From Cryptosporangium phraense (GTDB taxonomy: Bacteria; Actinomycetota; Actinomycetes; Mycobacteriales; Cryptosporangiaceae), in NCBI RefSeq assembly GCF_006912135.1, contig NZ_VIRS01000024.1, forward strand, positions 41,329 through 105,328: a stretch of DNA of 64,000 nucleotides, read 5' to 3'. Position numbers and translations under genes: made by a program. Positions 29,414 through 48,942 of this stretch are shown piece after piece; position 1 is the stretch's first letter, and every line of letters starts with the position of its first letter. Below the pieces are notes generated by a model that was not told the origin of the DNA, ran no database searches, and saw only the letters and a program-made list of their open reading frames with translations.

Positions 29414-29467
29414 GTGATAAGGATGAACGGTAACGGTGGGATTTCTACCGTTCTGCAAACGAAGTAA

Positions 29468-29599
29468 CGCGCGCTCCGGGGTCGGTGAAAGTCCGAACCG
29501 GCGGTGACAGTCCGCGACCCGTGAGCCCTTCGGGGTGAGCGGTTGACCCGGTGGAACTCCGGGACCGACGGTGAAAGTCCGGATGGGAGGATGCGCGCG
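29468..29599 (+). ncRNA. FMN riboswitch (RFN element)
   Basis: Conserved RFN sequence blocks appear in order: CTCCGGGGTCGGTGAAAGTC, GAACCGGCGGTGACAGTCC, the ACTCCGGGACCGACGGTG block, and GTCCGGATGGGAGGA. The closing helix P1 is made by GCGCGC words at both ends (about 29469 and 29593). FMN binding should reduce expression of ribE-ribBA-ribH, which starts about 85 bases later. No terminator is visible between it and ribE, so control is likely at translation. Confidence 0.95.
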
Positions 29600-32307: not shown

Positions 32308-33162
32308 ATGCTGCGCATCGCTGTGCCCAACAAGGGCTCGCTCTCCGAGCGAGCCACCACGATCCTGTCCGAGGCCGGGTACCGCCAGCGTCGCGACCCC
32401 AAAGAGCTCGTTCTGGTGGACGCCGAGAACGAGGTCGAGTTCTTCTACCTGCGGCCCCGGGACATCGCGGTGTACGTCGGGTCGGGCGACCTCGATCTCG
32501 GCGTCACCGGGCGGGACCTGCTGCTGGACTCGGGGGCTGACGCCGTCGAGGTGCTGCCGCTCGGGTTCGGGTCGTCGACGTTCCGGTTCGCGGCCCGGCC
32601 GGGAACGGTTTCTACTGTTCGTGACTTGGCCGGGCGTCGCATCGCCACGTCGTACGCGGGGCTGGTGCGGTCGCACCTGGCCGACCACGGGGTCACCGCC
32701 GAGGTGATCCGGCTGGACGGCGCGGTCGAGACCGCGATCCGGCTCGGCGTGGCCGACGTGATCGCCGACGTCGTCGAGACCGGCGCGACCCTGCGCCAGC
32801 AGGGGCTGGAGATCGTCGCCGAGCCGATCCTGCGGTCGGAGGCGGTGGTGATCCGGGGCAAGGGCCGTTCGGAATCCGGCGAGGACCACCGGGTCGATCA
32901 GCTGATGCGCCGGATCAACGGGGTGCTGGTCGCGCGCCGGTACGTGATGCTGGCTTACGACGTCGAGATGGCCCGGCTCGACGAGGCGGTCGCGATGACG
33001 CCGGGCATCGAGGGCCCGACGATCTCGCCGCTGCACAAGGAGGGCTGGGTGGCCGTCCAGGCGATGGTGCCCCGGGACGAGACGAACCGGATCATGGACG
33101 CGCTCTACGACCTGGGGGCGCGGGCCATTCTGGTCACGTCGATCCACGCATGCCGGCTGTGA
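32308..33162 (+). CDS. hisG: ATP phosphoribosyltransferase, long form
   Basis: 284 residues. First step of histidine synthesis. The long form has its own C-terminal histidine-binding regulatory domain (about 210-284, with GIEGPTISPLHKEGWVAVQ), so feedback inhibition does not need HisZ. N-terminal RIAVPNKGSLSERA and PRDIAVYVGSGDLDLGVTGRDLL, with the PRPP loop around DVVETGATL. ATG 32308 follows AAGGAG (32293-32298). Confidence 0.96.
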   Translation: MLRIAVPNKGSLSERATTILSEAGYRQRRDPKELVLVDAENEVEFFYLRPRDIAVYVGSGDLDLGVTGRDLLLDSGADAVEVLPLGFGSSTFRFAARPGTVSTVRDLAGRRIATSYAGLVRSHLADHGVTAEVIRLDGAVETAIRLGVADVIADVVETGATLRQQGLEIVAEPILRSEAVVIRGKGRSESGEDHRVDQLMRRINGVLVARRYVMLAYDVEMARLDEAVAMTPGIEGPTISPLHKEGWVAVQAMVPRDETNRIMDALYDLGARAILVTSIHACRL

Positions 33163-33635: not shown

Positions 33636-33645
33636 CGCAGGGAAC

Positions 33646-33690
33646 GCCGCCCGGCGGCGAGCCGTCGTGAACGGCTCGCCGCCGGGCGGC
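33646..33690. terminator. Strong bidirectional hairpin
   Basis: Perfect 20-bp stem (33646-33665 with 33671-33690) and loop CGTGA, placed between the convergent PH-protein gene and the minus-strand small peptide gene. No U tract on either side. Confidence 0.75.
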
Positions 33691-33724
33691 GCTATGGCTC
33701 GGCGGGATCAGGGCTCGGCGGGTA

Positions 33725-33877
33725 TCAGGCCAAGTTCGTGACGAACGCGCTGAATCCGCTGGCGATGTTGACCATGCCATTACCTAGGGATCGCACTACG
33801 CCGGCCGCGTCACCCGGTTGGGTAACCACGAAGAACACCAGCAGGGCAATCGCTCCCCATTTGAGGAACTTCTTCAT
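33725..33877 (-). CDS. 50-residue membrane peptide, conserved-type actinobacterial hypothetical
   Basis: Starts MKKFLKWGAIALLVFFVVTQ: a basic start, one helix (about 7-19), then GDAAGVVRSLGNGMVNIASGFSAFVTNLA, likely an amphipathic tail. ATG at 33877 follows GAGGAGG by six bases; a longer GTG start at 33934 would read through that ribosome site. Function unknown. Upstream there is an AT-rich perfect palindrome (33951-33963) that may be its operator. Confidence 0.75.
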   Translation of the reverse strand: MKKFLKWGAIALLVFFVVTQPGDAAGVVRSLGNGMVNIASGFSAFVTNLA

Positions 33878-33950
33878 GTCACGCCTCCTCGCAGCGGGGG
33901 TTGGCGCCCACCAGCACTGCTGCCGCAGAGTCACAGCCCGTATACCAACA

Positions 33951-33963
33951 GTTAGAATCTAAC
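33951..33963. promoter_or_regulatory. AT-rich palindrome upstream of the 50-residue peptide gene
   Basis: GTTAGAATCTAAC, arms of six around one A. On the minus strand a -10-like TATACG lies at 33944-33939, so the palindrome would overlap the spacer or -35 of that promoter. Regulator unknown. Confidence 0.4.
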
Positions 33964-34049
33964 ACGTTGCTATGACTTGGTGACCCGTAGGCCGATTGTG
34001 TCCGATGACTGATCGCGTGGGGTGGGCACTCGGCAATTCACTCATGTGT

Positions 34050-36539
34050 TCAACCGGCTTCTCCTGCGCCGGGCTCGGCTGAGGTGTTGACGGCGTTAGC
34101 GTCAGTGATAGCCGTCTCCTCGTCGTCGGGGAGGACTGTCAGTTCGGCGGCGCCTGCGCGGCTCAGGGTACCGATTGGAGCGTCGGGTCCGGAGCGTCGG
34201 ACGAGCGAGAAAGACGGTAATCCGAGGAGCGTCGACCGGCCGGAAGCGGTTCCGACGGCGAGGAACCAGTGGTCGGCCTGGTCGTAGTACATCCACCCGT
34301 CGTCGAGCCCGTCCCACTCGGCGGATGGATCCACAATGCTGTGGGGGGCGGGGGTGGTGGTCGTGTCCTGGCCGGAGGTGCTTTCGCCGGCCGGGGCCGC
34401 GCCGGCGGCGGGGGCGGTGCTGGCGGCGGGGGCGGTGCTGGCGGCGGGAGCGGACTCGGGACGGGGCTCGGTAGTGACCTCGGTAGTGACCTGGGCAGGG
34501 GGCTCGGTAGTGACCTCGGTTGTGACCTGGGCAGGGGGCTCGGTAGGGGACTCGGCAGGGGGCTCGGCCGTGGCCGAGGTCGCCGGTTGGGGAGCGGGGT
34601 CGCTCGTAGCGGCGTCGGCCGACCCGGCCTCCGTTGTGGCCTCCGGGAGGCCGGTGGGCGCGCCGGCAGGCTCGCGGGTGCTGATCGGGCTGGGGGCGGG
34701 CACGGTGCCGTCCTGGTTGGTCGTAGCGCTCGAGATCGGGTCCGAGTCTCGGCGGGCTGGTTCCCCGGCGGCGGCCGCTTCAACCGAGGCGCCCGAGTCG
34801 GCCGAGGCGGCTCCGAGATACGCGGTGGCTACGGCGGGAGCAGCCTCACCCCGGCCGGGACCGGCTGGGTCCTCAGCGGCCGCTGGGTCGTGAACGGCGG
34901 CCGCGTCCTGAGCGGAGACGGCCGGGTCCGGTGAGGCCACTGCCGCTGGGGCGGAGGCGGAGGGGTTTTCGTCGCGCGAGGCTCGATCGGCCGTAGCGTC
35001 GGCCGGGTCGTCCTCGCCGAGAGGGCCGTCGCTGGAGGCGGCGAGATCCTGAGCGCTGTCTGCGACCGGGTCAGCCTGGTCCGGGACCTGAACGGCGGAG
35101 GTTTCGGCTGCAGTCTCGCCCTCCGCAGCCGAGTCGCGGTTCTCCGGCCCTTCCCGGATGTCCCGGCCGTCGGCGGCCGAGTCGTCTTTCGAGCCGGTTG
35201 AGCCCGCGCCGGGAGGCCGGGCGGCGGGGTGCGGGGCCGCCGGGCTCCGTGCCGGAACCGCTTGAGCCTGGCCTGGGATCGCGGGGCCTGGGATCGCGGG
35301 GCCAGGTGCCGCGGGGGCAGGTGCCGCGGGGGCAGGTGCCGCGGGGGCGGGTGCCGCGGGCGGCGGTGTTGCTCGGTCATGGGTCACTGGGATGGGCGCG
35401 GGGCTACCGACGGCCGGTGGGCTCTGAACGGCGGCAGCGACAGATGGGGCGGCGGGGTAGCCCGTGGGGGCGTCCGTCGCGTTCGGGCGATCGGGTCGGC
35501 CGACACCCGGCAAGCTCGGCGCCGCCGGCACGCCGGCACCCTGCTCCCCAGGGCGGGGGCTAGCGACCAGCCCCTCGGGCCGCGGGCCGGTCTCCAGAGC
35601 CTCGGGCTGCAGGCCGGCCTCCAGCCGCTCGGGCAGCGGGCCGGCCTCCAGCCGCTCGGGGCGCGAGCCGGCCTCCAGTCGCTCGGGGCGCGGGCCGGCC
35701 TCCGCGCCTGCGGGGTGCGGGCGGGCCTCCGAGCCTGCGGGGTGCGGGCGGGCCTCCGAGCCTTTGGGGGGCCGGTCGCGGCGGGTGACCGGCACCAAGC
35801 GGGTCGAGTAGCCGTAGCGCGGGGCGTCCGACGGCGGGCGTGGGCCCGGCAGCGCCGCGGTTCGGGGTCCGGGCGGCGGCTCGCGGTCGGGCGACCCGTT
35901 ACGGGCGCGGTCGCCGGCGCGGCCGGCGTCCCGGCTGCCGCCGTCACGCCGGTCGGTGTCACGGCGGCTGGCGTCGTGGCGGGCGGCGTCCAGGCTGCCG
36001 CCGTCACGCCGGTCGGCGTCCCGGCTGCCGCCTTCACGCCGGTCGGCGTCCCGGCTGCCGGGGTCATGGCGGTCGGCGTCACGGCGCGTGGCGTCGCTCA
36101 GCGTGGCCGGCCGTCTGGCCGGTAAGGCGGCCGCGCGGCTCGCGCCCGCGGTGAGCGCGGCCCGGCGCGGGGGCGGCGAGATCGGACGATGCTCCTCGTG
36201 GGGCACCTGCCGCAGCTGACGCTCCTCGACCCGGTCCGCGACCCGCGCGAACCCGGCCCCGACCACCGCGAACAGGATCACCCCGGCGCCGATCGCGGCC
36301 AGCAGCGCGGTCGTCCCGTGCTCCGGCACGAGCCGCCAGCAGAGCACGGCGCCGGCGACACTCGTCAGCAGGAACCCCAGGAGCGCGGAGAGCGCGGCCG
36401 GGAACTGGGTGATCGACGCGCGCCGGGGGCTGTCGGCCCGGACCGCGGCCCGCGCGTGCGCCAGTATCACCGACCCGCCGGTCGCCAGGAGTAGCCCTAA
36501 GCCGAGCGCGACCGCCGCGACCAGCGTCGTCCTGTTCAC
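34050..36539 (-). CDS. Large low-complexity membrane protein, function unknown
   Basis: 829 residues from GTG 36539 (GGAGGG five bases upstream). Residues 1-100 hold three hydrophobic segments (TTLVAAVALGLGLLLATGG; FPAALSALLGFLLTSVAGAVL; ALLAAIGAGVILFAVVGAGF). Residues about 105-720 are disordered: RRDADRRDGGSRDA repeats, then SEARPHPAG/LEAGPRPER repeats, then Ala/Pro and Pro/Thr/Glu tracts (PPAQVTTEVTTE). A short ordered C-terminal domain (about 740-815, EWDGLDDGWMYYDQADHWFLAVGTASG) is the only globular part; it looks beta-rich and I do not recognise it. Divergent from the type IV-like cluster, so possibly a partner. Confidence 0.75.
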   Translation of the reverse strand: MNRTTLVAAVALGLGLLLATGGSVILAHARAAVRADSPRRASITQFPAALSALLGFLLTSVAGAVLCWRLVPEHGTTALLAAIGAGVILFAVVGAGFARVADRVEERQLRQVPHEEHRPISPPPRRAALTAGASRAAALPARRPATLSDATRRDADRHDPGSRDADRREGGSRDADRRDGGSLDAARHDASRRDTDRRDGGSRDAGRAGDRARNGSPDREPPPGPRTAALPGPRPPSDAPRYGYSTRLVPVTRRDRPPKGSEARPHPAGSEARPHPAGAEAGPRPERLEAGSRPERLEAGPLPERLEAGLQPEALETGPRPEGLVASPRPGEQGAGVPAAPSLPGVGRPDRPNATDAPTGYPAAPSVAAAVQSPPAVGSPAPIPVTHDRATPPPAAPAPAAPAPAAPAPAAPGPAIPGPAIPGQAQAVPARSPAAPHPAARPPGAGSTGSKDDSAADGRDIREGPENRDSAAEGETAAETSAVQVPDQADPVADSAQDLAASSDGPLGEDDPADATADRASRDENPSASAPAAVASPDPAVSAQDAAAVHDPAAAEDPAGPGRGEAAPAVATAYLGAASADSGASVEAAAAGEPARRDSDPISSATTNQDGTVPAPSPISTREPAGAPTGLPEATTEAGSADAATSDPAPQPATSATAEPPAESPTEPPAQVTTEVTTEPPAQVTTEVTTEPRPESAPAASTAPAASTAPAAGAAPAGESTSGQDTTTTPAPHSIVDPSAEWDGLDDGWMYYDQADHWFLAVGTASGRSTLLGLPSFSLVRRSGPDAPIGTLSRAGAAELTVLPDDEETAITDANAVNTSAEPGAGEAG

Positions 36540-37035
36540 CGGTCCCTCCGGACACTCGGTGCAAGCGCCTGTGATGCGACGTCGCCGAGAACCCGCCGCG
36601 TCGCGGGAAACAGGGTATCGGGTCCCACACCGGACGATGATGGCCAGTGGGGGCAATGAGACCGCTGCTGCGGAGCGTCCCCATAGTGCAGTTCAGCGGG
36701 AGGAACGGACCGGCGGACGGCCGCGGTGAGATCAAGCACCCTCCGTAGCCGAACCCGTGAACGTACCGGAACATCCGATGAAGCCGGTTGACCCGTTGCC
36801 ACCTGCGGGTTGATCCTCCGTATCGGTGAGTCCGCCTCGGCCGGGCGGGGCCGATCGGCGGTCCCAAACGGTGAACGGCGTTATTACCAACTCCCCGGAC
36901 GTAGCGGTAGCGTGTCTTAGCGTCACCAGAGAGGTGGTGGTACGTCGGCATGCGGATCGGCGGGTGCGGGAACCCAGTAGTGTCCGTGCGCGTGTAAAGG
37001 GCCGAGGAGTCGGCGTACCAATGCGGGAGGTACAG
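36540..37035. promoter_or_regulatory. Divergent region upstream of the type IV-like cluster
   Basis: 496 bases without a convincing gene; open frames are short and atypical. It should hold promoters for the minus-strand membrane protein and for the plus-strand cluster. The GC content dips around 36880-36960. No strong promoter pair or palindrome found. Confidence 0.4.
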
Positions 37036-37332
37036 ATGCTGACCCACGTGATCCAGGCGACCGCAGGGATTCCTGACGGGATTCTCGCCGCGGCTGACCC
37101 GGGCGGCACCACGTTGAACACTGACGGCATCGTCGGGTTCATCGTGTCCAAGATCGTGCCGATCCTGCTCGCCGTGGTCGGCGTGATCATCTTGAGCAGG
37201 TCGGGCAAGGGACAGTGGTCGCAAGCGTTGACCACTGGGGGCATCGCCATCCTGGGAATCGTGTTCATCGCCGGCGCGGGGTTGCTCTTCGCGTTCGGGG
37301 AGGGCATTGCCAAGCTGGCGCTCGGAGGCTGA
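37036..37332 (+). CDS. Small two-helix membrane protein, VirB2/TrbC-like position
   Basis: 98 residues from ATG 37036, five bases after GGGAGG (an in-frame ATG at 37021 contains that site). Two hydrophobic helices: IVGFIVSKIVPILLAVVGVIIL (about 32-53) and ALTTGGIAILGIVFIAGAGLLFAF (about 63-87), joined by a short polar loop SRSGKGQWSQ. Size and layout match pilin-like VirB2/TrbC subunits or small accessory proteins of type IV systems; assignment rests on context, not on a conserved motif. First gene of the cluster. Confidence 0.75.
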   Translation: MLTHVIQATAGIPDGILAAADPGGTTLNTDGIVGFIVSKIVPILLAVVGVIILSRSGKGQWSQALTTGGIAILGIVFIAGAGLLFAFGEGIAKLALGG

Positions 37333-37337
37333 ATCGG

Positions 37338-37691
37338 ATGCGGCTGCGCCCTGACGACGACATCTACCGCGCGAAGCTGCTCTTCCTGGGTCCGAAGGGC
37401 TTCACGCTGCCGGTGCACCTGCCCTATGTGGCATATCCGCTGTTCGCCGTCGTGCTTGCTGTGATCATGTTTCTGCGGTGGGTCTTCACGAGGGACGTCG
37501 AGCTGTTCCCCGCGATCGAGATCGCGCTGTCGATCGTCACCACCTCAGTGATCCTGCGGCAGGTCAGTCCCGACCGTCCGGTCCGCGCGGTGCTGCGCAC
37601 CGCGGCCACGGACTGGCGGCGCGATCGCGCTTCCGACGTGCGCGGCGGACGGGCCCGGTCCAAGATCGTCGTGCGGGAGACCATTCGATGA
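37338..37691 (+). CDS. Small membrane protein, VirB3/PrgI-like
   Basis: 117 residues, ATG 37338 with GGAGG nine bases upstream. Starts with a short polar segment (RLRPDDDIYRAKLLFLGPKGFTLP), two close helices (PYVAYPLFAVVLAVIMFLRWVF and ELFPAIEIALSIVTTSVILRQV), then a basic tail (RTAATDWRRDRASDVRGGRARSK). A two-helix protein just before the VirB4 ATPase is the usual VirB3 or PrgI arrangement. Overlaps the ATPase gene by ATGA. Confidence 0.75.
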   Translation: MRLRPDDDIYRAKLLFLGPKGFTLPVHLPYVAYPLFAVVLAVIMFLRWVFTRDVELFPAIEIALSIVTTSVILRQVSPDRPVRAVLRTAATDWRRDRASDVRGGRARSKIVVRETIR

Positions 37692-40600
37692 GCGGACGCC
37701 ATTCCCGGGGGGACGCCGACGCGGCGGACACCCGGGACGCACAGACCAGCGCCCCGGCGAGCGGGTCGCCCCCGAAGTCGGGGTATCCGGTTTTTCGTCC
37801 GGCGGGTGCGCGGGGGCGGGCCGGCTCCGAGGGGACGGGTCCGGGGGTGACTCGGATTCCGTCCACTGGGGCGGTCGTTTCTCCACAGTCCGGTGTGTCG
37901 CCGGCGGAGGAGTCTGCGGTCGGCGGGGACGTCGAGGCGAATGGGGCTTCGGGAGTGCCGCAGTCTGGGCCGCCGCAGGCGGGGGTACCTCAGGCGGGGG
38001 CGCCGGAGGGCGTGGGTGATGGGGGTTTGCGCCAGGACGCGCCGGTCGGTGAGGCGCAGCCGGGCAGTGAGCTCGGTGGTGACGGGAGCCAGCCGCAGGG
38101 CGGGGCGCCGAACGGGGTTTCGTCGGGTGGGGTCAGTCCGAACGGGGCGCCGCCGAATGGTGGGGCGTCTAACGGTGGGGTGCCCAACGGCGGGGCGTCT
38201 AACGGCGGGGCGTCTAACGGCGGGGTGTCTAACGGCGGGGTGTCTAACGGCGGGGTGTCTAACGGCGGGGTGTCTAACGGCGGGGTGTCTAACGGCGGGG
38301 CGTCTAACGGCGGGGTGCCCGACGGCGGGGCGCAGAACTTCGGGGCGCCGAGTGGTGGGGGGCAGAACTTCGGGGCGCCGAGTGGTGGGGGGCAGAACGG
38401 CGGGGTGCCGAATGGTGGGGGGCAGAACGGGGGCGCGCCGGGTGGGCCGCCTCGGCCGGGGCCGTTCCCGCCTCGGATCATGCCGCCCGGGGCTCGGCCG
38501 AACTACGGTCAGCAGCCGCCGAACCCCGGGGTGAACCAGCCCTCGGGGCCGCACCGGGTGATCAACCAGCCGTCCGGGGCGTACCCGGTCCTGCCGCCGA
38601 ACGCGGGTCAGCGTCCGGGCGGGCCTCACCCCGGCGTGGCCCAGCCCTCGGGCACGCATCCGGTGCTTCCGCCGGGTGTGCATCAGACTTCGGGGCCGCA
38701 TCAGGTCCTGCCGCCGGGCGTGAATCAGCCGTCCGGGGCGCATCGCCTCGTGGCGCCGGGGAATGTTCCGCCCGGGGCGGTTCCGCCGGGGAACGTGCCG
38801 CCGGGGAGCGTTCCGCCGGGGAGCGTGCCGCCCGGCAACGTGCCGCCCGGCAACGTGCCGCCCGGCAACGTGCCGCCGGGGAACGTGCCGCCTGGGGTGG
38901 CTCAGCCGTCGGGGGCTCATCCGCTGCTGCCGCCGAATGTGGGGCCGGGGCAGCGACCCGGGCCGCCGTCCGGGGGAGTGCCGGCTCAGGGGTATCCGAA
39001 TCGGCAGCCGGGTGGTCCGGTGCAGGGTGGGCCGGGGCGGCCGCCTCAGGGTGGGCCGGGTGGATGGGGTCCGGGCGGACGTGCGCCTGGCAATGTTCCG
39101 CCGGGCCAGGTTCCGCCGGGCCAGGTTGCGCGTGGCAATGTTCCGCCGGGAGTTGGGCAGCCGTCCGGGGCTTACCCGGTACTGCCTGCGAACGCTGGTC
39201 ACCCTAGCTCCGCGTCTCCGCGTTCAGCTCCGCCCGGGCGGCCGGTCTCCGGGCCGGTAGTCGGCCCGAACGGCCTCGTCGGCTCCGGGCCGGGCGGTCC
39301 GGGGTCGGATGGTCCGGGCGGCCCAGGCGTTGTTGGCCCATCGGGTTCTGGTGGACCGGCTGGTCCTGGCGGTCCGACCGGTCCTGGCGGTCCGACCGGT
39401 CCTGGCGGTCCGGCTGGTCCTGGCGGTCCTGGCAGCGCCGGGCCACCTAGGGCTGGCGGGGGCGTCGGGCGAGGCGGCCTTGACGGCCCCAATGCTGGCG
39501 ACCCTTCTGGCCGCGGTCCGGCCGGCCCCGGCGCCTCGACCGGTCTCGGCGGTCCGGCTGGCCCTGGCGGCCCGGGCGGTCCTGGTGGGCCAGGCAGTCA
39601 GCGGGGTCCTGTCGGGCAGCCTGGATCGGGCGCTGCAAACGGAGCACCTCCCTACAGCGGTCCTTCGCGGCCCGTTTCCGGTCCGGTCGTAGGTCCGGGC
39701 GGCCCCGACGGACCGGCGGTGTACGGCGGAGCGCCCTCGCGGCCGGTTTCCGGGCCGGTCGGCGGCCCCGACGGACCGGGCGGGCCAGCCGGGTATGCCG
39801 GCGCGCCCTCGCGGCCCGTTTCCGGGCCGATCGTTGGTCCTGACGGGTATGTCGGCGCGCCCTCGCGGCCGATCTCTGGGCCGATCGTCGGGCCCGGTGG
39901 GCCTAGCGGGCCCGAGGGGCCGGCCGGCTACGGCGGGGCGCCTTCGCGCCCGACCTCCGGGCCGGTCGGCGGCCAGGGCCCCCGGCCCGTGTCCGGCCCG
40001 GCGGGAGCACCCGTGTCCGGCCCGGCCGGAGCACCCGTGTCCGGAACGTTCGGACCTCCCGTATCCGGACCGGTCGGGCGGCCGGTGTCCGGGCCCGTCG
40101 GGGCGGACGGCCTCGAGCGCGGCCCCGGCCCGGCGCCGTGGCCGGTCCAGCACCCGATGAACACCGCGCCGCACAACGCGGCTCCTCCGTCGACGCTTCC
40201 GACGCACCCCGCTTCGGTCGCGGTCGCGCCCCCGGCCCGGATGCCCAGCCGGCCGGTGACCGGGGCTCCGGCGTCGGCTCCGCCCGCGTCCGTTCCTCCC
40301 GCGCTGTACGTGCCCGCGCCCGAGCGCTACCCCGCGCTGGATCCCGCCGAGCCCAGCGAGCCGGAACGTTCCGCCGAAAATCGTAAAAAAAGGCCCAAGC
40401 CACGACGGGTGAAGAGCCGTCCGCCGAAGGACCGGAAGGACCGGCAGGCGGTTCACGAGCTGGAGCTGCGCGAGATAGCCGGGCATCTCACCTTCACCCG
40501 CAACGACGTCACCGCGTGGTACCACCTGCCCGACATCCAGTGGGCGTTCCGGGCCGACAAGGAGCGGACGTCGATCCTGCTCGGGATCGCCGCGCAGTAC

Positions 40601-42982
40601 GCGGCGCTCGGCGGGTACCGGCTGCACCTGCGGCGGACGAACCGGCCGTACCCGGCCGTCGGCTGGGCGCGCCGAATGGCGGCGCTGACGCCGAACCCGG
40701 TGCCGGACGTCCGCGGCGCGCCGAGCTGGTCCGACCACCTCGAGGCCGGCCAACGGCGGCTGCACGCGACCAGCCTCGCCGAGGGCGAGGTCTACCTCGG
40801 GGTCGTCTTCCAGCGGCGGACGATGCGCGAGCAGGCGATCGAGACGCTCAACGCGCTGCGCAAGCGCGGGTCCGGGAACGCGGAGCGCAACCGGCTGGAG
40901 CAGCTCGTCGGACGGTTCGACGAGGTGCTCGGCGCGTTCGGCATGCAGGCCCGCCCGGCGACCGCGAAGCAGGTCGAGTGGCTGATCCACCGGTCGGTCG
41001 CGCTCTGCATGCCACCGCCTCCGGCGCTGTCGCCGGCCGAGTCCGGCGGCTGGGAGACCGGTGACCTGCTCGCTTTCACCGAGCACACGATGCGGTACCG
41101 GTCGCCGTACGGCAGCACCGTCAAGCTCCTGTCCCGGATCGGTGACGAGTACGTCGAGCGCCACGTGGCCGTTCTGACGTTCGGACGGATGGAAGAGCTG
41201 TCGATCCCGGAGCGGCACGAGCCGTGGCTGCACTTCCACGAGCAGCTGCCGTGGCCGATGGAGATCTCCAGCCGGGTCGACGTGCTCGGCCAGGGCGACG
41301 CGCTGCGGTCGCTGGAGCACAAGCTGCTGACGATCCGGTCGCAGCAGCGCGACTACCACGAGCACGAGATGGACGCTCCGCCCGAGTTGGAGCGCCTGGC
41401 TCAGCGTGCGTTGGACATCTCTGACGAGATGTCCACCGGTCTCGATCTGGACGCTGCGCGAGTGCACGGGTGGCACCGGATCGCGGTGGCCGGTCGCAGC
41501 GAAGAGGAATGCATGCGACGGGCGCGGGCGCTGACCGACCACTACCGGTCGATGCGCATCACACTGAACCATCCGCGGGACCAGCTGCGGCTGCTCGACG
41601 AGTTCATTCCTGGGCAGCCGGTCGCGAACACCGGTTACCTGCGGCGGATGCCGGCGAAGTACTTCGCGGCGGCGATTCCGCAGGCCGCAGCGGCGATCGG
41701 TGACCGGCGCGGCCCGATCATCGGCGAGACGTGCGGGACGTCGCACCGTCCGGTGATGTGGGATCCGCACTACGCGACCGAGGTGCGGGAGCGGTCAGGG
41801 CTCGCGGTGTTCGTGGCCGAGCCCGGCGGTGGTAAGTCGACGCTGATGGGCGGTATCGCATACCTCGCCGCCCGGCGCGGGGTGCAGTGCACGATTCTGG
41901 ACCCGTCGGGTCCGCTGGCCCGGCTGGCGACGATGCCGGAGCTGGCGCCGTTCTCCAAGGTCTACAACCTCACGCGGGGCGAGCCGGGGACGCTGGCGCC
42001 GTACGGCCTGATCCCGACGCCGCGGCGGGAGCACTTCGCCGCCGGTCCGGCCGGCGATGCCGAGTGGACGTCGGCGGTGGCGGCGGCGCGGGCCGAGCGG
42101 AAGGCGCTGGCCACCGACATCTGCATGATGTTGCTGCCGCCGCAGATCCAGCGGGAGCGGTCGTCGCCGATCCTGCTGCAGCGGGCGGCGCGTCAGGTGG
42201 AGCCGGAGGAGTGGGCGACGCTCGACGAGCTCATCTCGGTCGTTGCCGGCTTCGGTGACGAGGGGTCGGAGCTGGCGGAGACGCTCGGGGACGTGCGGGA
42301 CATGCCGCTCTCGCGGCTGTTCTTCGGGCGGTCGACCGCGGCCTACGGGCAGGACGAGGCGGTGCTGACCGTGATCACGATGGCCGGGCTGGCGCTGCCG
42401 GACCTGACCATCGACCGGGAGTTCTGGCAGCTCGAGGAGCGCATGGCGCTGCCGATGCTGCACCTGGCCACGGCGTTCACGACCAGGCGCGCGTACGGAC
42501 GGGCGATGCACGAGCGCAAGCTCGTGGCGCTGGACGAGACGCACTTCCTGGCCGGGTGGGGATCGGGGCGGGCGCTGTTCACGCGGCTCGCGCGGGATTC
42601 GCGGAAGTGGAACATCGCTGCTCTGGCGGCTTCGCAGAATCCCGTGGACATCTTGGGTCTGGACGTTCAGAACCTGGTTTCGACGGTGTTCGTGGGGCGG
42701 ATTGCCGAGGATCCGGAGATCGCGGCTCAGGCGCTCCGTATGCTCGGTGTGCAGCGTGGGATCGGATACGAGAACACGCTGGCGCAGTTGTCTTTGGCGG
42801 ACAGTTCGAATGATCAGCGGCTCGGCTACCGGGAATTCGTCATGCGTGACGTTGACGGCCGGGTCCAGAAATTCCGGGCGGACCTGGCTTATGTGGCCGG
42901 GCTGCTCGAACACCTTGACACCACCGCCGATCCACTCGGCGATGTTGGCCGGATAGCCGGCCAGGAGGGTGATGCCCGGTGA
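37688..42982 (+). CDS. VirB4-like type IV secretion ATPase with ~900-residue collagen-like N-terminal extension
   Basis: 1764 residues. Residues 1-900 are disordered repeats: [10 protein letters not shown] tandem units (about 160-220), PSGAHPVLPP blocks, [10 protein letters not shown] (about 360-405), collagen-like [13 protein letters not shown] (about 555-640) and [11 protein letters not shown] units (about 655-800). From about 920 a conserved ATPase region begins ([23 protein letters not shown]). Walker A is EPGGGKST with Lys1383; Walker B is LVALDE with Asp1616-Glu1617, followed by [18 protein letters not shown], a sensor-like motif of VirB4/TraC. It should power assembly or substrate transfer at the inner face of the membrane. 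Four-base overlaps on both sides. Confidence 0.88.
38165..38335 (+). repeat. 15-bp tandem repeat in the VirB4-like gene
   Basis: At least ten copies of a 15-base unit (GGCGGGGTGTCTAAC and variants) encoding [10 protein letters not shown]; five consecutive copies around 38220-38290 are identical, indicating recent slippage. Confidence 0.9.
39345..39600 (+). repeat. Collagen-like Gly-X-Y coding tract in the VirB4-like gene
   Basis: Repeats of GGTCCTGGCGGTCCGAC and relatives encode Gly-Pro-Gly and Gly-Pro-Ala/Thr triplets. Confidence 0.8.
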
Positions 42983-45285
42983 CCCTGCGTGTCGTGCCGG
43001 TCTTTGGGGCCGGGTGGGTGGATGCGGTTTTGGATGGCGTCCTTGGGCGGTCTGGTGTGGGTGGGCAGCCCGGCGCGGGCGGGCGGCCGGGATGGCAGAC
43101 TGGTGCTGGCGGGCGGTCCGGCTCGAGTGGGCAGCCTGGGCGGGGTGGGCAGCCTGGGCGGCCGGGCCGGCGTAGCCGGGTTGGCTGGCTTCGGGGGCGT
43201 GGCCTGCGGGGGTCGGTGGGGCGGGGTGTGGCTTGGGTTCTGACGGTGATGGTGGTCGCGGTAGCAACGCTGTTCGGGGGGCCGGGAGTAGGCCCAGCCG
43301 CGGCGGCGTGCGGCCCGAGCGATCCGGCGGCTTGTTTGCCGAGTAGTAGCGTGGTCGATTGCCTAGACCCCCCAACACCAGCAATGCCAGACACCGGCGC
43401 TACGAGCTTCTTCGTCAGCCGCCCAGCGGAAATAGATCCGGGCAACTATCAGAAGGCCCCAACGTATGATCAATTCGGCTATGCAGGCCTGCAATATCAT
43501 ACGTACGACCTAGGTTGTGGCCCTGACGGGGCTGTGGCGCCCGATGCGCTTGTGAATACCAGCATTGCGAATATGATGCTCAGCTTTTCGACCTTCGTTG
43601 TTGGTCTTACGAACGCTGTAAGAGAGAGGGCGTACGATCCCCAGACGATGTGGGGCTGGACAAATGAACTAATCGGAAAAGCCAGCAGTGCTCTATACGA
43701 ACGAATCTTTACCGTCCTTGGCTTCGTGACCGTCGTCATTGTGGGAGCGTGGCTAATTTGGACCGCTCGACGTGGAAACATGTCAGATGCAGCCACGATT
43801 GCGGGCTGGGCGCTGTTTGTGATGGTGGTGACAACTGCAGTGGCGGCGTGGCCTGTTCGTGCCGCAACGCTGGCGGATAGTGCCCTTACCGGTTCGCTCG
43901 GAAGTGTCAATAGTGCTCTCCACCCGAACACGAGTGAGACGTGCGGTACCCGGTCGTGCGACGACACGCGAGAGCCCGCGCAGAAGGCTAGCGCGACGAT
44001 CACCGACGTGGTGCTGTACCGCCAGTGGCTCAGTGGGCAGCTTGGTTCGGCGGATAGCGCTACCGCGAAGAAATACGGGCGCGATCTTTATGAAGCTTCG
44101 GCGATGTCGTGGGACGAAGCAATTGACGCGCGCCAGAGTCCCACAGAGCGCGACCGCATCGTTAAGGAGAAGCAGGAGAAGTGGAAGGATATTGCTGCCG
44201 AGATTAAGAAAACCGATCCAGACGCATATCAGTATCTGACCGGTAAGCAAGGAAGTGCCCGTATAGGATCGGCGTTCACGTCCATCGTGGCGGCGTTGGT
44301 GGCGGCTCCGTTTGACTTGATGGCCTCTATTCTTATCATTATTGCGTTCCTGATTATTCGGCTGGCCGTGGCTTTCTTGCCGGCCATTGCGGTAGTTGGG
44401 ATTTTGCGGCCGGCTTCTGGGCCTCTTCGGGGGTTGTTCCGCACCGTTGTCGCGGCCATTTTGAACTGCGTCATCTTCGGCGTCGGGGCCAGCGTCTACC
44501 TGCTCGCCCTCGAGTTGATCACCAGCACCGCCTCCCTGGCCGGGTGGCAGCAGATCCTGCTGATCTTCCTCACCGGCCTCGTCATGTGGTTACTGCTCCG
44601 GCCCTTCCGGCGCCTTACCAGCCTCGCCGGCGGTAATCCCTTCCACGACCTCGTCGGTGGGCTTGGCGCGGTTCGGCGGCGGGCCTTTGGCGACGCTCGG
44701 CAGGCCGGCCTCGTCGCGGCCGGTGCGCTCATCGGAAACCGCGCGGCGGAGAACTCCGACGAGCGGCAGAGTGAGGCCCGGCCGGAGACCTGGAGCCGCG
44801 ACCGGAGCTTCGTCCGCACCGGCGACTCGCCCATCGACTCGGCCACCGACACGGCCGCCGTCGGCGGTTCCCCGGTGGAATCAGCCGCGGCACGGCGGTC
44901 CCGTCTGCGCGAGGACTCCCCGGTCACGTCGGGCGCACGCCCCGAAGGCGCCGGCGCGCCGGCGCGCGACGACGAGAACGACTACCCCGGTCTGCGTCCG
45001 CCCGCCCGGGTCGCCGCCGGCCGCGGCTACCCTGACCCTGAGCCCGGTTCCCGTCCGGAAGGCTCCCGCCCAGGGGGTTCCCGTCCGGAGAACGGCGGCG
45101 GCATCGACTACCGCGACCCGGCCTCCGCCGTCGCCTCCCGCGGCGAGTCGATCCCGGTCCAGTCCGAGGAGCGGTTCGTCATCTACCGCCCCGACAGCGG
45201 GTTCCGCACCGTCGATCCCGACATCCGTCCGGAGTCCCGCCGCGTTCCGCGCGAGGACGTGACGGCCGGAAACCGACCCGAATAG
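42979..45285 (+). CDS. Polytopic membrane protein, VirB6/TrbL-like
   Basis: 768 residues from GTG 42979 (GTGA overlap). Residues 1-80 are Gly/Arg-rich; a signal-like helix follows (AWVLTVMVVAVATLF), then a Cys-containing extracellular stretch (ACGPSDPAACLPSS). Five or six helices lie between about 235 and 540 (FTVLGFVTVVIVGAWLIW; ILIIIAFLIIRLAVAFLPAIAVVGIL; ILLIFLTGLVMWLLL). The C-terminal 200 residues are charged and disordered. This matches VirB6/TrbL channel proteins in layout. The middle (about 43330-44480) is clearly AT-richer than its flanks (one 60-base line, 43441-43500, counts 29 G/C). Confidence 0.8.
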   Translation: MTLRVVPVFGAGWVDAVLDGVLGRSGVGGQPGAGGRPGWQTGAGGRSGSSGQPGRGGQPGRPGRRSRVGWLRGRGLRGSVGRGVAWVLTVMVVAVATLFGGPGVGPAAAACGPSDPAACLPSSSVVDCLDPPTPAMPDTGATSFFVSRPAEIDPGNYQKAPTYDQFGYAGLQYHTYDLGCGPDGAVAPDALVNTSIANMMLSFSTFVVGLTNAVRERAYDPQTMWGWTNELIGKASSALYERIFTVLGFVTVVIVGAWLIWTARRGNMSDAATIAGWALFVMVVTTAVAAWPVRAATLADSALTGSLGSVNSALHPNTSETCGTRSCDDTREPAQKASATITDVVLYRQWLSGQLGSADSATAKKYGRDLYEASAMSWDEAIDARQSPTERDRIVKEKQEKWKDIAAEIKKTDPDAYQYLTGKQGSARIGSAFTSIVAALVAAPFDLMASILIIIAFLIIRLAVAFLPAIAVVGILRPASGPLRGLFRTVVAAILNCVIFGVGASVYLLALELITSTASLAGWQQILLIFLTGLVMWLLLRPFRRLTSLAGGNPFHDLVGGLGAVRRRAFGDARQAGLVAAGALIGNRAAENSDERQSEARPETWSRDRSFVRTGDSPIDSATDTAAVGGSPVESAAARRSRLREDSPVTSGARPEGAGAPARDDENDYPGLRPPARVAAGRGYPDPEPGSRPEGSRPGGSRPENGGGIDYRDPASAVASRGESIPVQSEERFVIYRPDSGFRTVDPDIRPESRRVPREDVTAGNRPE

Positions 45286-45305
45286 CGCGATGAAGGAGCT
45301 CGACG

Positions 45306-45833
45306 ATGCCACGGCTACCGGCAGGCGTGTACCTGCGCCGGCCGGGTTACCGGGTGCTGTCGGCCCTGGTCCTGGCCGTGATCGTCGGGGGCATCATCGT
45401 CGTCGCCCGGCTGTTCGGCTCGGTCGCCGCCGACCAGCGGAGCCCTCAGCCGAACGATCGGCCGGCCCCGACAGCGGTCCGAACGACACAAGGCGACGAC
45501 AGCGTCTACTCACCCACGACCCGAGCGCCGGACGGCGCCGAACAGGTGGGTGACGCGTTCGTGCGCGCCTGGCTCCAACCGACCGACGGCCGGTCGCAGA
45601 AACAGTGGTTCGCCGGCCTCGAGCGGTACGCCCAGCCCGACCTGGCGAACCAGCTCAAGGACGTCGACCCGACTACGAACCCGGCCACGTCGATCACCGG
45701 CGACTCCACGGCCACTCCGCTCAGCGACACGGCCGTCCGCGTCGAGACCCCCACCAACGCCGGTCCGGCCACGACCCTCTGCGTCCTGACCGCCGACGGC
45801 TGGCGGGTCGCGACGATCGACCTGGGGGAGTGA
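45306..45833 (+). CDS. Single-pass membrane protein, VirB8/TcpC-like
   Basis: 175 residues; ATG 45306 with GAAGGAG seven bases upstream. One helix (about 19-38, LSALVLAVIVGGIIVVARLF), a flexible linker, then an outside domain of about 100 residues (EQVGDAFVRAWLQPTDGRSQKQWFAGLERYAQPDLANQL) with the NTF2-like pattern of VirB8/TcpC. The assignment depends partly on its place between the VirB6-like and hydrolase genes. Confidence 0.7.
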   Translation: MPRLPAGVYLRRPGYRVLSALVLAVIVGGIIVVARLFGSVAADQRSPQPNDRPAPTAVRTTQGDDSVYSPTTRAPDGAEQVGDAFVRAWLQPTDGRSQKQWFAGLERYAQPDLANQLKDVDPTTNPATSITGDSTATPLSDTAVRVETPTNAGPATTLCVLTADGWRVATIDLGE

Positions 45834-45840
45834 CGCCCCC

Positions 45841-46998
45841 ATGGCCATCGACGTCCGTCCGGAGACCGCCGCGCCCCCCGAGCAGAACCCGAACCGGCTG
45901 AAGAAGCTCGTCATCATCGGCATCTGCGTGATCGCGGCCGGCTCCCTGCTCTGCCTCGGCTTCACCCCGATGGTGTTCAGCGGCATCGTCCAGAGCATGC
46001 GCGACTCGGCCGAGAACGCGCAGGAAGGCTGCGGCTCGCTGGGCTTCACCGTCGACGACGACGTCAAGATCGACGGGCTGGCCGCGGATCAGCTGCAGAA
46101 CGCGGCGACGATCGTCGGCGTCGGTCAGAAGATGCAGGTTCCCCCGCGCGGATGGGTCATCGCGCTGGCCACCGCGCTGCAGGAGAGCCTGCTGCACAAC
46201 TACACGGTCGCCACCGACCACGACTCGGTCGGCCTCTTCCAGCAGCGTCCGAGCAGTGGGTGGGGCAACGCCCCGGCGACCGCTACCGACACCCGCACCC
46301 CCGCCCAGCGCCTGGCCGACCCCAGCTATGCGTCCGCCAAGTTCTACGAGAAGCTCCTCCGGCAGCCTGGCTGGAACCAACGGCGGCTGGCCGAGGTGGC
46401 CCAGGCGGTGCAGATCTCCGCGTTCCCCGAGCGCTACGCGCGCTGGGAGTCGTTCGCCACGCTCCTGGTGAACCGGCTGACCAAGGGCGCCGCCAACGGC
46501 GTCGTCGCGACCCAGGGCGACCCGATCCGGTGCGCAACACCGGGGCAGATCACCGGGGCGGGCTGGACCGTCCCCGCGCTCGGCCAGGTCGGTAGCGGCT
46601 TCCGGCCGCCGGACCGGCCCAGCCACCAGGGCGTGGACATCATCGTCCCGCGTTTCACGGTGATTCACGCGGCCAGCGCCGGGATCGTCATCACCTCGAA
46701 GTGCAACGCGTCCACCGGCAACTGCGATGTCGACGGTGGCATCAGCGTCAAGGGCTGCGGCTGGTACGTCGAGATCGCGCACACCAGCGGGCTGACCACC
46801 CGCTACTGCCACATGGTCGAGCGGCCTCTCGTGCAGGTCGGTCAGACCGTCGTGGCCGGGCAACCGCTGGGGCGGGTCGGTTCGTCGGGCAACTCCTCCG
46901 GGCCGCATCTGCACTTCGAGACCCGCGTCAATGGCGACGCCGTCAACCCGATCCCGTTCATGGCCGCCCGCGGCGCCCCGCTCGGCACCCGGCAATGA
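45841..46998 (+). CDS. Two-domain peptidoglycan hydrolase: lysozyme-like plus M23 endopeptidase
   Basis: 385 residues. One membrane helix (about 22-45, LVIIGICVIAAGSLLCLGF). Residues about 75-200 resemble lytic transglycosylase/lysozyme folds (VIALATALQESLLHN with the likely catalytic Glu, then DHDSVGLFQQRPSSGWG). Residues about 240-375 are an M23 zinc peptidase (GSGFRPPDRPSHQGVDI and GPHLHFETR: His/Asp and HxH ligands intact). Such VirB1-type enzymes open the cell wall for type IV machines in Gram-positive bacteria. Last gene of the cluster. Confidence 0.88.
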   Translation: MAIDVRPETAAPPEQNPNRLKKLVIIGICVIAAGSLLCLGFTPMVFSGIVQSMRDSAENAQEGCGSLGFTVDDDVKIDGLAADQLQNAATIVGVGQKMQVPPRGWVIALATALQESLLHNYTVATDHDSVGLFQQRPSSGWGNAPATATDTRTPAQRLADPSYASAKFYEKLLRQPGWNQRRLAEVAQAVQISAFPERYARWESFATLLVNRLTKGAANGVVATQGDPIRCATPGQITGAGWTVPALGQVGSGFRPPDRPSHQGVDIIVPRFTVIHAASAGIVITSKCNASTGNCDVDGGISVKGCGWYVEIAHTSGLTTRYCHMVERPLVQVGQTVVAGQPLGRVGSSGNSSGPHLHFETRVNGDAVNPIPFMAARGAPLGTRQ

Positions 46999-47055
46999 CC
47001 GCTCAGAACCCGGCAAAGACCGCATCACCCATCGGCGTTCCGCCGCATAGCGTAA

Positions 47056-47421
47056 TCAAAAGACCGGACCGGTCAGCTTTTCTCCCGGACCTTGGCCGGG
47101 AGGGTCGGGAATGACCGACGATTCGCGGAACGCGCGCTGAAGGCTGGACAGGCCGTCGCGCAGCGGCGCGGCGTGCGCGCCGAGGTACTCCACCGACGAG
47201 GTGACGAGGCCCGCCAGGGCCGTGATCAACCGGCGCGCCTCGTCGAGGTCGCGATGCGGAGAGGAGTCCGGATCGTCGGAGGCGAGCCCGAGACGCTCGG
47301 CGGCCGCGCTCATCAGCATGACCGCGGCACGGCTGATGACCTCGACGGACGGGATCTCCGCCAGGTCGCGGACGTCGGGCTCGAGGGAATGCACATCGCC
47401 GACTGGGTGTTCAACACTCAT
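47056..47421 (-). CDS. DUF1844 family protein
   Basis: 121 residues. Residues about 22-75 match the DUF1844 pattern DLAEIPSVEVISRAAVMLMSAAAERLGL followed by HRDLDEARRLITALAGLV, and the C-terminus GPGEKLTGPVF is typical of the actinobacterial family. Conserved next to infC but of unknown function; all-helical, cytoplasmic. ATG 47421 chosen; a start ten codons upstream (47451) is possible. The gene is divergent from infC and shares its promoter region. Confidence 0.88.
   Translation of the reverse strand: MSVEHPVGDVHSLEPDVRDLAEIPSVEVISRAAVMLMSAAAERLGLASDDPDSSPHRDLDEARRLITALAGLVTSSVEYLGAHAAPLRDGLSSLQRAFRESSVIPDPPGQGPGEKLTGPVF
47058..47081. terminator. Bidirectional terminator between the hydrolase and DUF1844 genes
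   Basis: AAAAGACCGGACCGGTCAGCTTTT: a short GACC/GGTC hairpin flanked by an A run and a T run. It overlaps the last codons of the DUF1844 gene (Val-Phe-stop). Confidence 0.5.
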
Positions 47422-47518
47422 GCCTGGTACCCTGGCAGAACGACCAGCCATCCGCGCATTGCGGGTGGCAGCCAAGTGGAGCCCCGCTCCCACCCTCGCA
47501 GCCTCCGGGCGGCAGGGT

Positions 47519-47549
47519 CCGGTCTGAGAACGGCTATGCCGTAGACCGG
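47519..47549 (+). ncRNA. Structured element in the infC leader
   Basis: CCGGTCT (47519-47525) pairs with AGACCGG (47543-47549) and ACGGC (47530-47534) with GCCGT (47538-47542), leaving a GAGA bulge. It sits seven bases before the leader terminator, the arrangement of an aptamer plus expression platform. Confidence 0.6.
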
Positions 47550-47556
47550 TCGAGTG

Positions 47557-47582
47557 GGCCTCAGCATGCGCTGAGGCCTTTT
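47557..47582 (+). terminator. Intrinsic terminator (attenuator) in the infC leader
   Basis: GGCCTCAGC (47557-47565) pairs with GCTGAGGCC (47570-47578), loop ATGC, followed directly by TTTT. It lies 55 bases before infC on the infC strand, so it probably terminates part of the infC transcripts rather than ending an upstream gene (the upstream gene is on the other strand). Confidence 0.75.
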
Positions 47583-47637
47583 CGTCGTGTGGGGCTCCAG
47601 CCGGGCAGGTCAGAGACAGTACGTCCGAGGAGGTCCC

Positions 47638-48207
47638 ATCAGCGTAGAGCTGCGTGTGAACGACCAGATCCGCGCCCGAGAGGTGCGTCTCGTCGGTCCT
47701 GAAGGAGAGCAGGTCGGCATCGTCCCGGTTGCCGAGGCCCTGCGCCTCGCCCAGGACACCGACCTGGATCTGGTCGAGGTCGCGCCGACCGCGCGGCCGC
47801 CCGTCTGCAAGCTCATGGACTACGGAAAGTTCAAGTACGAGAGCGCGCAGAAAGCACGGGAGGCGCGGCGTAACCAGAGCCTCACCGTGATCAAGGAAAT
47901 GAAGCTTCGGCCGAAGATCGACCCGCACGACTACGAGACCAAGAAGGGTCACGTGGTGCGGTTCCTCAAGGCCGGCGACAAGGTCAAGATCACGATCATG
48001 TTCCGCGGTCGCGAGCAGAGCCGTCCGGAGCTGGGTTTTCGGCTCCTGAAGCGGCTCGCCGACGAGGTGACCGAACTCGGCTTCGTCGAGTCGTCGCCGC
48101 GCCAGGATGGCCGCAACATGATCATGGTGATGGCCCCACACCGCGCACTGAAGACCGCGGGCCAGCGAGGCTCGGGTGAAGAGTCGGACGCCCCTGCGGA
48201 CGTCTGA
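47638..48207 (+). CDS. infC: Translation initiation factor IF-3, ATC start
   Basis: 189 residues. IF-3 keeps the 30S subunit free and checks the start codon. N-domain: [24 protein letters not shown]; linker region [24 protein letters not shown]-domain: [39 protein letters not shown] at 47627-47633 is spaced four bases from an ATC at 47638, which begins the conserved frame; the next usual start (GTG 47656) is too distant. Non-canonical starts are how IF-3 represses its own mRNA in other bacteria. Behind the leader attenuator at 47519-47582. Confidence 0.92.
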
Positions 48208-48208
48208 C

Positions 48209-48258
48209 ACGTAACGGGTGGCGCGGCTCCCGGAGACGGGCGCCGCGCCCCGGTACGT
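48209..48258 (+). other. Long hairpin between infC and rpmI
   Basis: ACGTA, CGG and GGCGCGGC arms (48209-48227) pair with GCCGCGCC, CCG and TACGT (48241-48258). It ends 25 bases before rpmI. May control or process the rpmI-rplT part of the message; ribosomal protein L20 feedback on this operon is known in other bacteria. Confidence 0.5.
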
Positions 48259-48283
48259 CATGAGTAGACCAACGAGGAAACTG

Positions 48284-48478
48284 ATGCCGAAGAACAAGAC
48301 CCACTCGGGCACCGCCAAGCGCGTGAAGATCACCGGCAGCGGCAAGCTCCGTCGCCAGAAGGCGAACCGCCGCCACCTGCTGGAGCACAAGCCCAGCACC
48401 CGCACCCGGCGGTTGGACGGCACGACGGACTTCGCGCCCACCGAGACCAAGCGCATCAAGCGTCTTCTCGGAATTTGA
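48284..48478 (+). CDS. rpmI: 50S ribosomal protein L35
   Basis: 64 residues, very basic. [35 protein letters not shown] is the L35 signature, and [15 protein letters not shown] the usual end. ATG 48284 with a GAGG site upstream. Confidence 0.96.
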
Positions 48479-48552
48479 TTTTCCCTTCCCTTGACCACTG
48501 ATCGTCGCCACCGAGAAAAGGTCGACGACCGCTAGAAGGAACAGGTGTACCC

Positions 48553-48942
48553 GTGGCACGCGTGAAGCGGGCGGTCAATGCCCAGAAGAAGCGCCGGACC
48601 ACCCTTGAGGCCGCGAAGGGTTACCGCGGCCAGCGCTCGCGGCTCTACCGCAAGGCCAAGGAGCAGATCCTCCACTCCGCGACGTACTCGTACCGCGACC
48701 GCAAGGCGCGTAAGGGTGACTTCCGCCAGCTCTGGATCACTCGCATCAACGCTGCGGCCCGGGCCAACGGCCTGACCTACAACCGCTTCGTCCAGGGCCT
48801 GCGCCTCGCCGAGATCGAGGTCGACCGCAAGGTCCTCGCCGACCTCGCCGTCAACGACGCGGCCGCCTTCGCCGCCCTCGTCGTCGTGGCCAAGGCCGCG
48901 CTGCCCGAGGACACGTCGGCGCCGCGCGAGGACGCGGCCTGA
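48553..48942 (+). CDS. rplT: 50S ribosomal protein L20
   Basis: 129 residues. [37 protein letters not shown] gives the long rRNA-binding N-terminal helix; the C-terminal globular part has [20 protein letters not shown], the region that recognises 23S rRNA and, in other bacteria, its own mRNA. GTG 48553. Its TGA stop overlaps the apparent CTG start of the next gene. Confidence 0.96.

Follow-up and report, generated by a model that had tools for sequence, protein, structure and literature searches.

The stretch of DNA analysed here (the window: 64,000 nucleotides of the draft genome of Cryptosporangium phraense, contig NZ_VIRS01000024.1) carries, at 37036..46998, six adjacent plus-strand open reading frames (ORFs), genes A to F, which we predict to encode a type IV secretion channel of the Gram-positive kind and whose VirB4-like motor is present in nearly all genomes of two actinobacterial families. 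The genes are near-contiguous, with four-base overlaps at B/C (ATGA) and C/D (GTGA) and spacers of 2, 20 and 7 bases at A/B, D/E and E/F, respectively, and given these tight junctions they are likely transcribed as one operon. A terminator-like hairpin lies downstream of F (47062-47074), where a scan found no promoter-like site. The cluster and its immediate surroundings comprise:

32308..33162, plus strand: hisG, left flank (NCBIfam TIGR00070)
36898..37035, plus strand: conserved leader or promoter region 5' of gene A (alignment of four same-genus genomes)
37036..37332, plus strand: gene A, 98 amino acids (aa), predicted to have two membrane helices, resembling VirB2 in size and position only
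37335..37691, plus strand: gene B, 118 aa, resembling VirB3/TcpE in topology and position only
37688..42982, plus strand: gene C, 1764 aa, VirB4-like ATPase (TcpF and AAA_10 matches)
37688..40450, plus strand: N-terminal tail of gene C, 921 aa, Gly/Pro-rich with tandem repeats (composition)
40451..42982, plus strand: conserved VirB4 core of gene C, 843 aa (alignment; ratio of nonsynonymous to synonymous divergence, dN/dS)
41825..41839, plus strand: Walker A motif (GGGKS) of gene C
42533..42538, plus strand: Walker B Asp-Glu of gene C
42979..45285, plus strand: gene D, 768 aa, VirB6-like multi-span membrane protein (CD3337/EF1877 match)
45306..45833, plus strand: gene E, 175 aa, one helix and a predicted NTF2-like ectodomain, VirB8-like (AlphaFold2, Foldseek)
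45841..46998, plus strand: gene F, 385 aa, M23 peptidoglycan hydrolase with a VirB1-like role (Pfam M23)
47587..48207, plus strand: infC, right flank (NCBIfam TIGR00168)

A preliminary description of this DNA, made from its letters alone, had read these six consecutive genes as a Gram-positive type IV layout containing a VirB4-like ATPase and a wall hydrolase, and the row of six genes, the ATPase and the hydrolase are borne out. Gene C matches the NCBIfam model TcpF (E 9e-24) and Pfam AAA_10 (E 9e-15), a profile of its core retrieves the VirB4-like structure 4ag5 (E 9e-6), and the core residues G459, G461, K462, S463, D695 and E696, which include those of the Walker A and B motifs, are invariant in 15 aligned sequences with identity down to 37%. 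Gene F matches Pfam M23 (E 1e-25); AAA_10 and M23 are the only family matches among A to F that pass their curated cut-offs. For the other genes, to which the preliminary description had given roles by topology and order, the outcome was mixed. Gene D gained a match to NCBIfam CD3337/EF1877 (E 1e-7, under the curated cut-off), a model matched by 25 of 34 gene D orthologues at E <= 0.01, and a PDB sequence search with it gave no match. By contrast, neither Pfam nor NCBIfam gave a convincing match for A, B or E, and orthologues did not provide one for B (no profile match over 27 of them) or E (no convincing family match). The AlphaFold2 model of gene E (pLDDT, the predicted local distance difference test score, at least 90 for 100 of 175 residues) predicts an NTF2-like ectodomain, for which Foldseek returned the VirB8 domain of PrgL (7aed), an IcmL-like protein (5cnl) and OrfG (8s7l), all weak and with the VirB8 domains amid many other NTF2-like matches, the best of which (E 4e-3) is a designed protein; a PDB sequence search returned designed proteins only. 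The roles of A and B are therefore putative assignments from topology and gene order, to which the predicted NTF2-like fold is added in the case of E. As a whole, the cluster contains three of the components by which a Gram-positive type IV channel (MPF_FA/FATA) is recognised, namely a VirB4 with Walker A and B motifs, a VirB6-like protein and a wall hydrolase, and B and E are candidates for two others, the VirB3/PrgI/TcpE-like and the VirB8-like protein.

Several features within and upstream of these genes deserve mention. The tail of gene C is composed of 25% G and 22% P, and the periods of its tandem repeats are multiples of three. Across 86 sources the VirB4 tail varies between 4 and 1103 residues (median 281), with 741-1103 residues in four same-genus genomes, 15 in Kineosporia and 35 on the plasmid of Streptomyces sp. 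891-h. In gene D, third-position GC is 0.73 versus 0.86-0.93 in A, B, the C core, E and F, a dip comparable to that of a Micromonospora-family orthologue of gene D, and synonymous divergence is raised (dS 1.3-1.6 versus 0.33-0.72). The leader (36898-37035) has 97.8% mean pairwise identity among the four same-genus genomes whereas 36740-36878 has just 61.5%, with boundaries picked after viewing the alignment. We rejected a known RNA as the explanation for it, having found no credible Rfam match, ordinary folding (z -0.22) and at most two ten-base words per locus in common with other families.

Distribution and genomic setting

Of 300 genomes in the family to which Micromonospora humi belongs (f15), 291 have the VirB4 of the cluster (E 1e-200), as do 240 of 249 in a second family (f14; E 1e-140), which makes 531 of 549 for the two families pooled; when only good genomes are counted, the figures are 276 of 282 (f15) and 220 of 228 (f14). 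The grouping of three f14 VirB4s with Actinomycetospora and Pseudonocardia leads us to take this family for Pseudonocardiaceae. All positive genomes but two (f15) and three (f14) gave a single match; the true copy number may be higher, since scoring was limited to three candidates per genome in the family draws and to two in the order-wide and phylum-wide ones. Beyond these families, the protein was detected in 169 of 397 genomes drawn order-wide (E 1e-80), in 5 of 396 drawn phylum-wide (E 1e-40) and in 27 of 61 near relatives (E 1e-3), and the best 80 of 170 confirmed VirB4 candidates include loci of Micromonospora, Salinispora, Actinoplanes, Dactylosporangium, Glycomyces, Kineosporia, Actinomycetospora and Pseudonocardia. 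The preliminary description had called this a fixed system, a view that near-universal and nearly always single occurrence strongly supports.

The remaining genes accompany VirB4 to a large extent. Searches with tblastn in 103 sources recovered A in 74, B in 86, C in 103, D in 99, E in 93 and F in 95, and the complete set in 66, where incomplete recoveries include truncated contigs and the misses of gene A also distant relatives. The order of the genes is conserved. Among 20 regions compared, ten have all six genes, A was undetected in five (L044-L048), three are partial (L049, L050 and L036) and two (L051 and L052) lack A, B, D and E, their VirB4 being of a distant type.

The neighbourhood of the cluster varies with lineage. 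As had been noted from the sequence, the housekeeping genes hisG and infC lie on both sides of it in the window, and profiles identify both. Comparison of this interval across genomes placed the cluster between ribAB/ribH/hisG/PH and infC in the window, in G002, G003, G014 and G027 (hisG undetected in G027 and PH in G014), one same-genus genome departing from this arrangement (see below). Folate genes or ftsH are found near the cluster in 45 of 52 full-length loci (L057-L124), the seven exceptions being six Glycomyces and one Stackebrandtia, and in three Actinomycetospora the cluster lies upstream of dnaK (DnaK was profile-named in one). VirB4 protein distances follow those of four neighbour gene families (Mantel r 0.70, 0.76, 0.83 and 0.85; permuted maximum 0.37). 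The VirB4 core is under purifying selection, with dN/dS of 0.06-0.09, and the remaining genes give 0.06-0.40; for gene B, the value of 0.20 against L035 is sound and the comparisons with L033 and L034 include misplaced starts.

In a 34-row tree, the VirB4s of the window's family, of family f11 and of the Micromonosporaceae-type loci form one fully supported, plasmid-free clade. The f14 clade is separate and adjoins two linear plasmids, and the plasmid label needs two changes on the tree. This topology suggests, without proving it, that the cluster may have been fixed in chromosomes twice independently; several branches are long, which makes the deeper joins unsure, and exchange between plasmid and chromosome may have gone in either direction.

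Mobility genes and related systems

The preliminary description had seen no att repeat, relaxase, coupling ATPase, integrase or excisionase around the cluster, and our searches agree. No exact repeat of at least 14 bases is common to the flanks 33600-37035 and 46999-47650, so that flank repeats were rejected as att sites in the window flanks, and the window has no tRNA gene. Neither integrase nor excisionase is present among the 11 proteins of 32308-48942 (Pfam and/or NCBIfam), although no whole-window integrase profile was run. The relaxase profiles TrwC (PF08751) and MOBP (PF03432), the two classes searched, are silent in the window's draft genome, G002 and G003; the same-genus genome G001 has one MOBP match, on a contig other than that of the cluster. 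Among 18 VirB4-bearing genomes, a TraG-D_C protein occurs in 12, TrwC in four and MOBP in two, and no TrwC or MOBP match lies on a cluster-bearing contig. ORF and profile checks recognised no coupling ATPase at the cluster locus, and the ORFs of 33150-46998 given to profiles include no FtsK/SpoIIIE ATPase. A look across the draft genome for a VirD4/TraG protein, as had been proposed, yielded one TraG-D_C match, on contig C16, where the only additional AAA_10 match, a weak one, is also found. That locus (L158:7235-14389), in which an 850-aa TraG/VirD4-type ATPase has a multi-span membrane protein and a putative VirB4 close by, appears from its ORFs to be like an integrative conjugative element (ICE) and separate from the cluster. 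In the finished same-genus chromosome G002 the cluster is present and there is no TraG-D_C, TrwC or MOBP match; there, the channel has therefore been kept without them.

The closest comparison is provided by plasmids. A VirB4 relative is encoded by 300 PLSDB records, and the seven VirB4-bearing records that we examined, all linear, include Streptomyces sp. 891-h NZ_CP050694, pRVR2, Rhodococcus jostii pRHL3, and plasmids of Nonomuraea and Pseudonocardia. Their modules follow the order A to F, with A, B, D and F in place on all seven and E on six (undetected on pRHL3) according to profiles of the chromosomal copies, E-values referring to a set of 44 plasmid proteins; on the Nonomuraea plasmid, a small additional gene separates B from C. 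The plasmid VirB4s are 31-39% identical to the window type over 97-100% of the core. At the position of gene F, six plasmids encode a C40/NlpC enzyme and pRHL3 an M23-type one, as in the window. Whereas the window copy is chromosomal and of a kind near-universal in f15 and f14, these related modules are plasmid-borne, with ParA annotated nearby on five of the seven, and they probably transfer DNA. Six of them have a FtsK/SpoIIIE ATPase nearby, each with an intact Walker A motif (none was seen within 9 kb on the Pseudonocardia plasmid). Since no such ATPase is found at the window locus, the window cluster looks like a linear-plasmid module minus its FtsK motor. Of the seven plasmids, pRHL3 is typed MOBP and the other six are typed non-mobilizable. 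Since six module-bearing plasmids thus also lack a typed relaxase, its absence from the window locus is weak evidence, and the suggestion of the preliminary description that the cluster perhaps serves functions other than conjugation does not follow from it; the absence of a coupling ATPase at the locus is more telling.

A FtsK/EccC-like protein is encoded downstream of the cluster in 38 of the 52 full loci, of Micromonosporaceae type (e.g., L060:17416-20085). We rejected this neighbour as a lost coupling protein, its similarity to the plasmid FtsK being weak and its Walker A motif mostly missing: GxxxxGK[ST] is present in only one of seven proteins inspected (six FtsK-like neighbours and one relative).

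Another fixed VirB4-type cluster has a published phenotype. The operon cmdABCDEF of Streptomyces coelicolor (SCO4126-4131) is described as chromosomal and developmentally regulated, with a VirB4-type ATPase, and as required for normal sporulation (PMC2782261). According to the same account, strains lacking the operon branch aberrantly and septate their spores poorly, 6-8% of the spores are anucleate, and an SLP2-derived plasmid is transferred without significant change (data not shown in that paper; PMC2782261). We found cmdB in 13 of 13 Streptomyces genomes searched (AAA_10 and the published oligonucleotides, with 2-6 mismatches), the genus g38 being called Streptomyces because its CmdB matches those oligonucleotides; the Walker A lysine of CmdB is Lys90. 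Like the window cluster, cmd is chromosomal and combines a VirB4-type ATPase with membrane proteins. They differ in that a phenotype is known for cmd only, that the cmd VirB4 is short (about 470 aa), that cmd has a SCO6880-family protein, a combination with a short VirB4 that is not seen in the window cluster, that CmdA has a marginal TraG-D_C match and that the gene order is another. Sequences resembling CmdA, CmdB or CmdC also occur at loci (L178-L180) away from the window-type cluster in G018, G047 and G001, of which two are genomes of the Micromonospora family and one is of the window's genus; the tblastn matches are weak, the best having E 3e-11. We thus take cmd and the window cluster to be distinct systems. 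That they might instead be orthologues is very improbable: CmdB is VirB4-type and its Walker A/B regions align with those of the window VirB4 profile to profile (probability 88, E 3e-6), which points to a distant relation and likely to an older shared descent, but gene content, gene order and co-occurrence with the window type speak against orthology.

In the Patescibacteria, chromosomal VirB4s related to MPF_FATA are described as widespread and mostly relaxase-free, and co-option has been proposed (PMC12102498). Their type IV secretion systems (T4SS) resemble the window cluster in being relaxase-poor and fixed, and differ in belonging to another phylum with varied gene arrangements and an epibiotic life style (PMC12102498). 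As for conjugative machines, gene C matches TcpF of the Tcp system and gene D the CD3337/EF1877 family of Gram-positive mobile elements, both far below curated cut-offs, and unlike those systems the window locus has no recognised coupling protein, relaxase or integrase.

Function of the predicted channel

On balance, we favour the view that genes A to F encode a Gram-positive type IV channel, with a motor near-universal in two families, that performs a household task at the cell envelope during hyphal growth or sporulation, and not its own conjugation. The retention of VirB4 in 531 of 549 genomes makes a household job likely rather than self-spread. The developmental part is the weakest step and is suggested by analogy with the Streptomyces cmd operon. 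We infer the following assembly and substrate transfer. In the membrane, the translocon would consist of the products of genes C (VirB4), B (VirB3-like) and D (VirB6-like). Gene E may provide a path through the wall via its NTF2-like ectodomain, gene F would open the peptidoglycan locally, and the gene A product could assemble into a small oligomer within the channel or on it. Without a coupling ATPase in the cluster, VirB4 itself may drive transport or assembly; alternatively, a trans-encoded ATPase of the FtsK/SpoIIIE type, as on the linear plasmids, might hand over the substrate. A more ambitious scenario, which we offer tentatively, is that filamentous actinomycetes repeatedly turned linear-plasmid conjugation machines into core-genome organelles, cmd and the window machine being parallel cases. 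The window machine, of different make-up and core to two more families, would in this scenario be powered by its own VirB4 and carry DNA or protein through the envelope of developing hyphae.

Several observations weigh against the favoured view. VirB4 is missing in 18 of the 549 genomes, including all three of genus g334 (f15), and two complete g271 genomes are negative at the same cutoff, so the cluster can be lost. In the same-genus G001 (L034/L209) the hisG side is retained and infC was not found within ~13.8 kb past F; the site is therefore not constant even within the genus. The genomes of family f11 measure merely 2.4-3.0 Mb. TraG-type ATPases are encoded elsewhere in 12 of the 18 VirB4-bearing genomes, the window's own included, which makes a coupling partner in trans possible, and the linear-plasmid VirB4s beside the f14 chromosomal clade imply that exchange with plasmids has occurred. 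The analogy with cmd is loose because the window VirB4 profile has no match in the 13 Streptomyces genomes at E 1e-3 and the gene content of cmd differs; moreover, for the deletion of cmdA alone the published account reports no apparent phenotype (PMC2782261). Finally, we found no experiment on the cluster in the open-access literature.

Other explanations account for parts of these data. The machine might take up DNA or export proteins, following the logic of T4SSs that operate without a coupling protein, such as ComB of Helicobacter (uptake) and Ptl of Bordetella (two-step export). This is possible but unlikely: VirB4 is the sole recognised ATPase and no coupling protein is recognised in the cluster, as such a machine would have it, whereas the neighbour genes vary by lineage and positive evidence is lacking, effector, secretion-signal and competence genes not having been searched. 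Rather doubtful, too, is a host-owned conjugation channel through which mobile elements with only a relaxase or only a FtsK would exit in trans. The intact FtsK/SpoIIIE neighbour of six of the seven plasmid modules, of which the chromosomal copy resembles a motorless version, would fit such an arrangement, as would the reported abundance of relaxases and scarcity of T4SSs and type IV coupling proteins in actinobacteria, where mobilizable elements presumably need both (Guglielmini 2011, PMC3158045). It offers, however, no obvious host benefit to explain the retention in 531 of 549 genomes with dN/dS near 0.07, and the finished G002 retains the cluster in the absence of TrwC, MOBP and TraG-D_C matches. 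The cluster does not look like a stranded mobile element. Surveys class a VirB4 locus devoid of relaxase, coupling protein or integrase as a defective ICE, but a stranded or decaying ICE is extremely improbable in view of the purifying selection, the near-universal retention, the lack of att-like repeats and of tRNA genes in the window, and the absence of stop codons inside VirB4 among the matches listed in the order and family draws.

A word of caution applies to automated ICE surveys, which may mistake machinery of the core genome for defective ICEs. Actinobacteria have been said to have few type IV systems (PMC3158045), and the near-universal, usually single-copy channel of these two families suggests a conserved envelope machine so far unnamed. 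We found no description of the cluster among the open-access papers listed by our searches, in which the lone virB4 of M. lupini was the only mention found; subscription papers and preprints lie outside this scope, and absence from print is not established. Both families are known for antibiotic producers.

Some minor observations concern regulation and the surroundings of the cluster. TTA codons occur in 16 of 78 D genes and 9 of 76 E genes, compared with 1-5 of 68-80 for the others, and as one flanking family has TTA in 14 of 31 genes, control through TTA and bldA is unsupported and was rejected. Upstream of the leader, the minus strand of 34050-36656 contains a long low-complexity ORF with tandem repeats (periods of, e.g., 12, 15 and 27 bases) and no family match, the middle of which has no blastn match in three same-genus relatives (low-complexity filter on). 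Further upstream, an FMN riboswitch at 29467-29598 lies 5' of apparent riboflavin genes.

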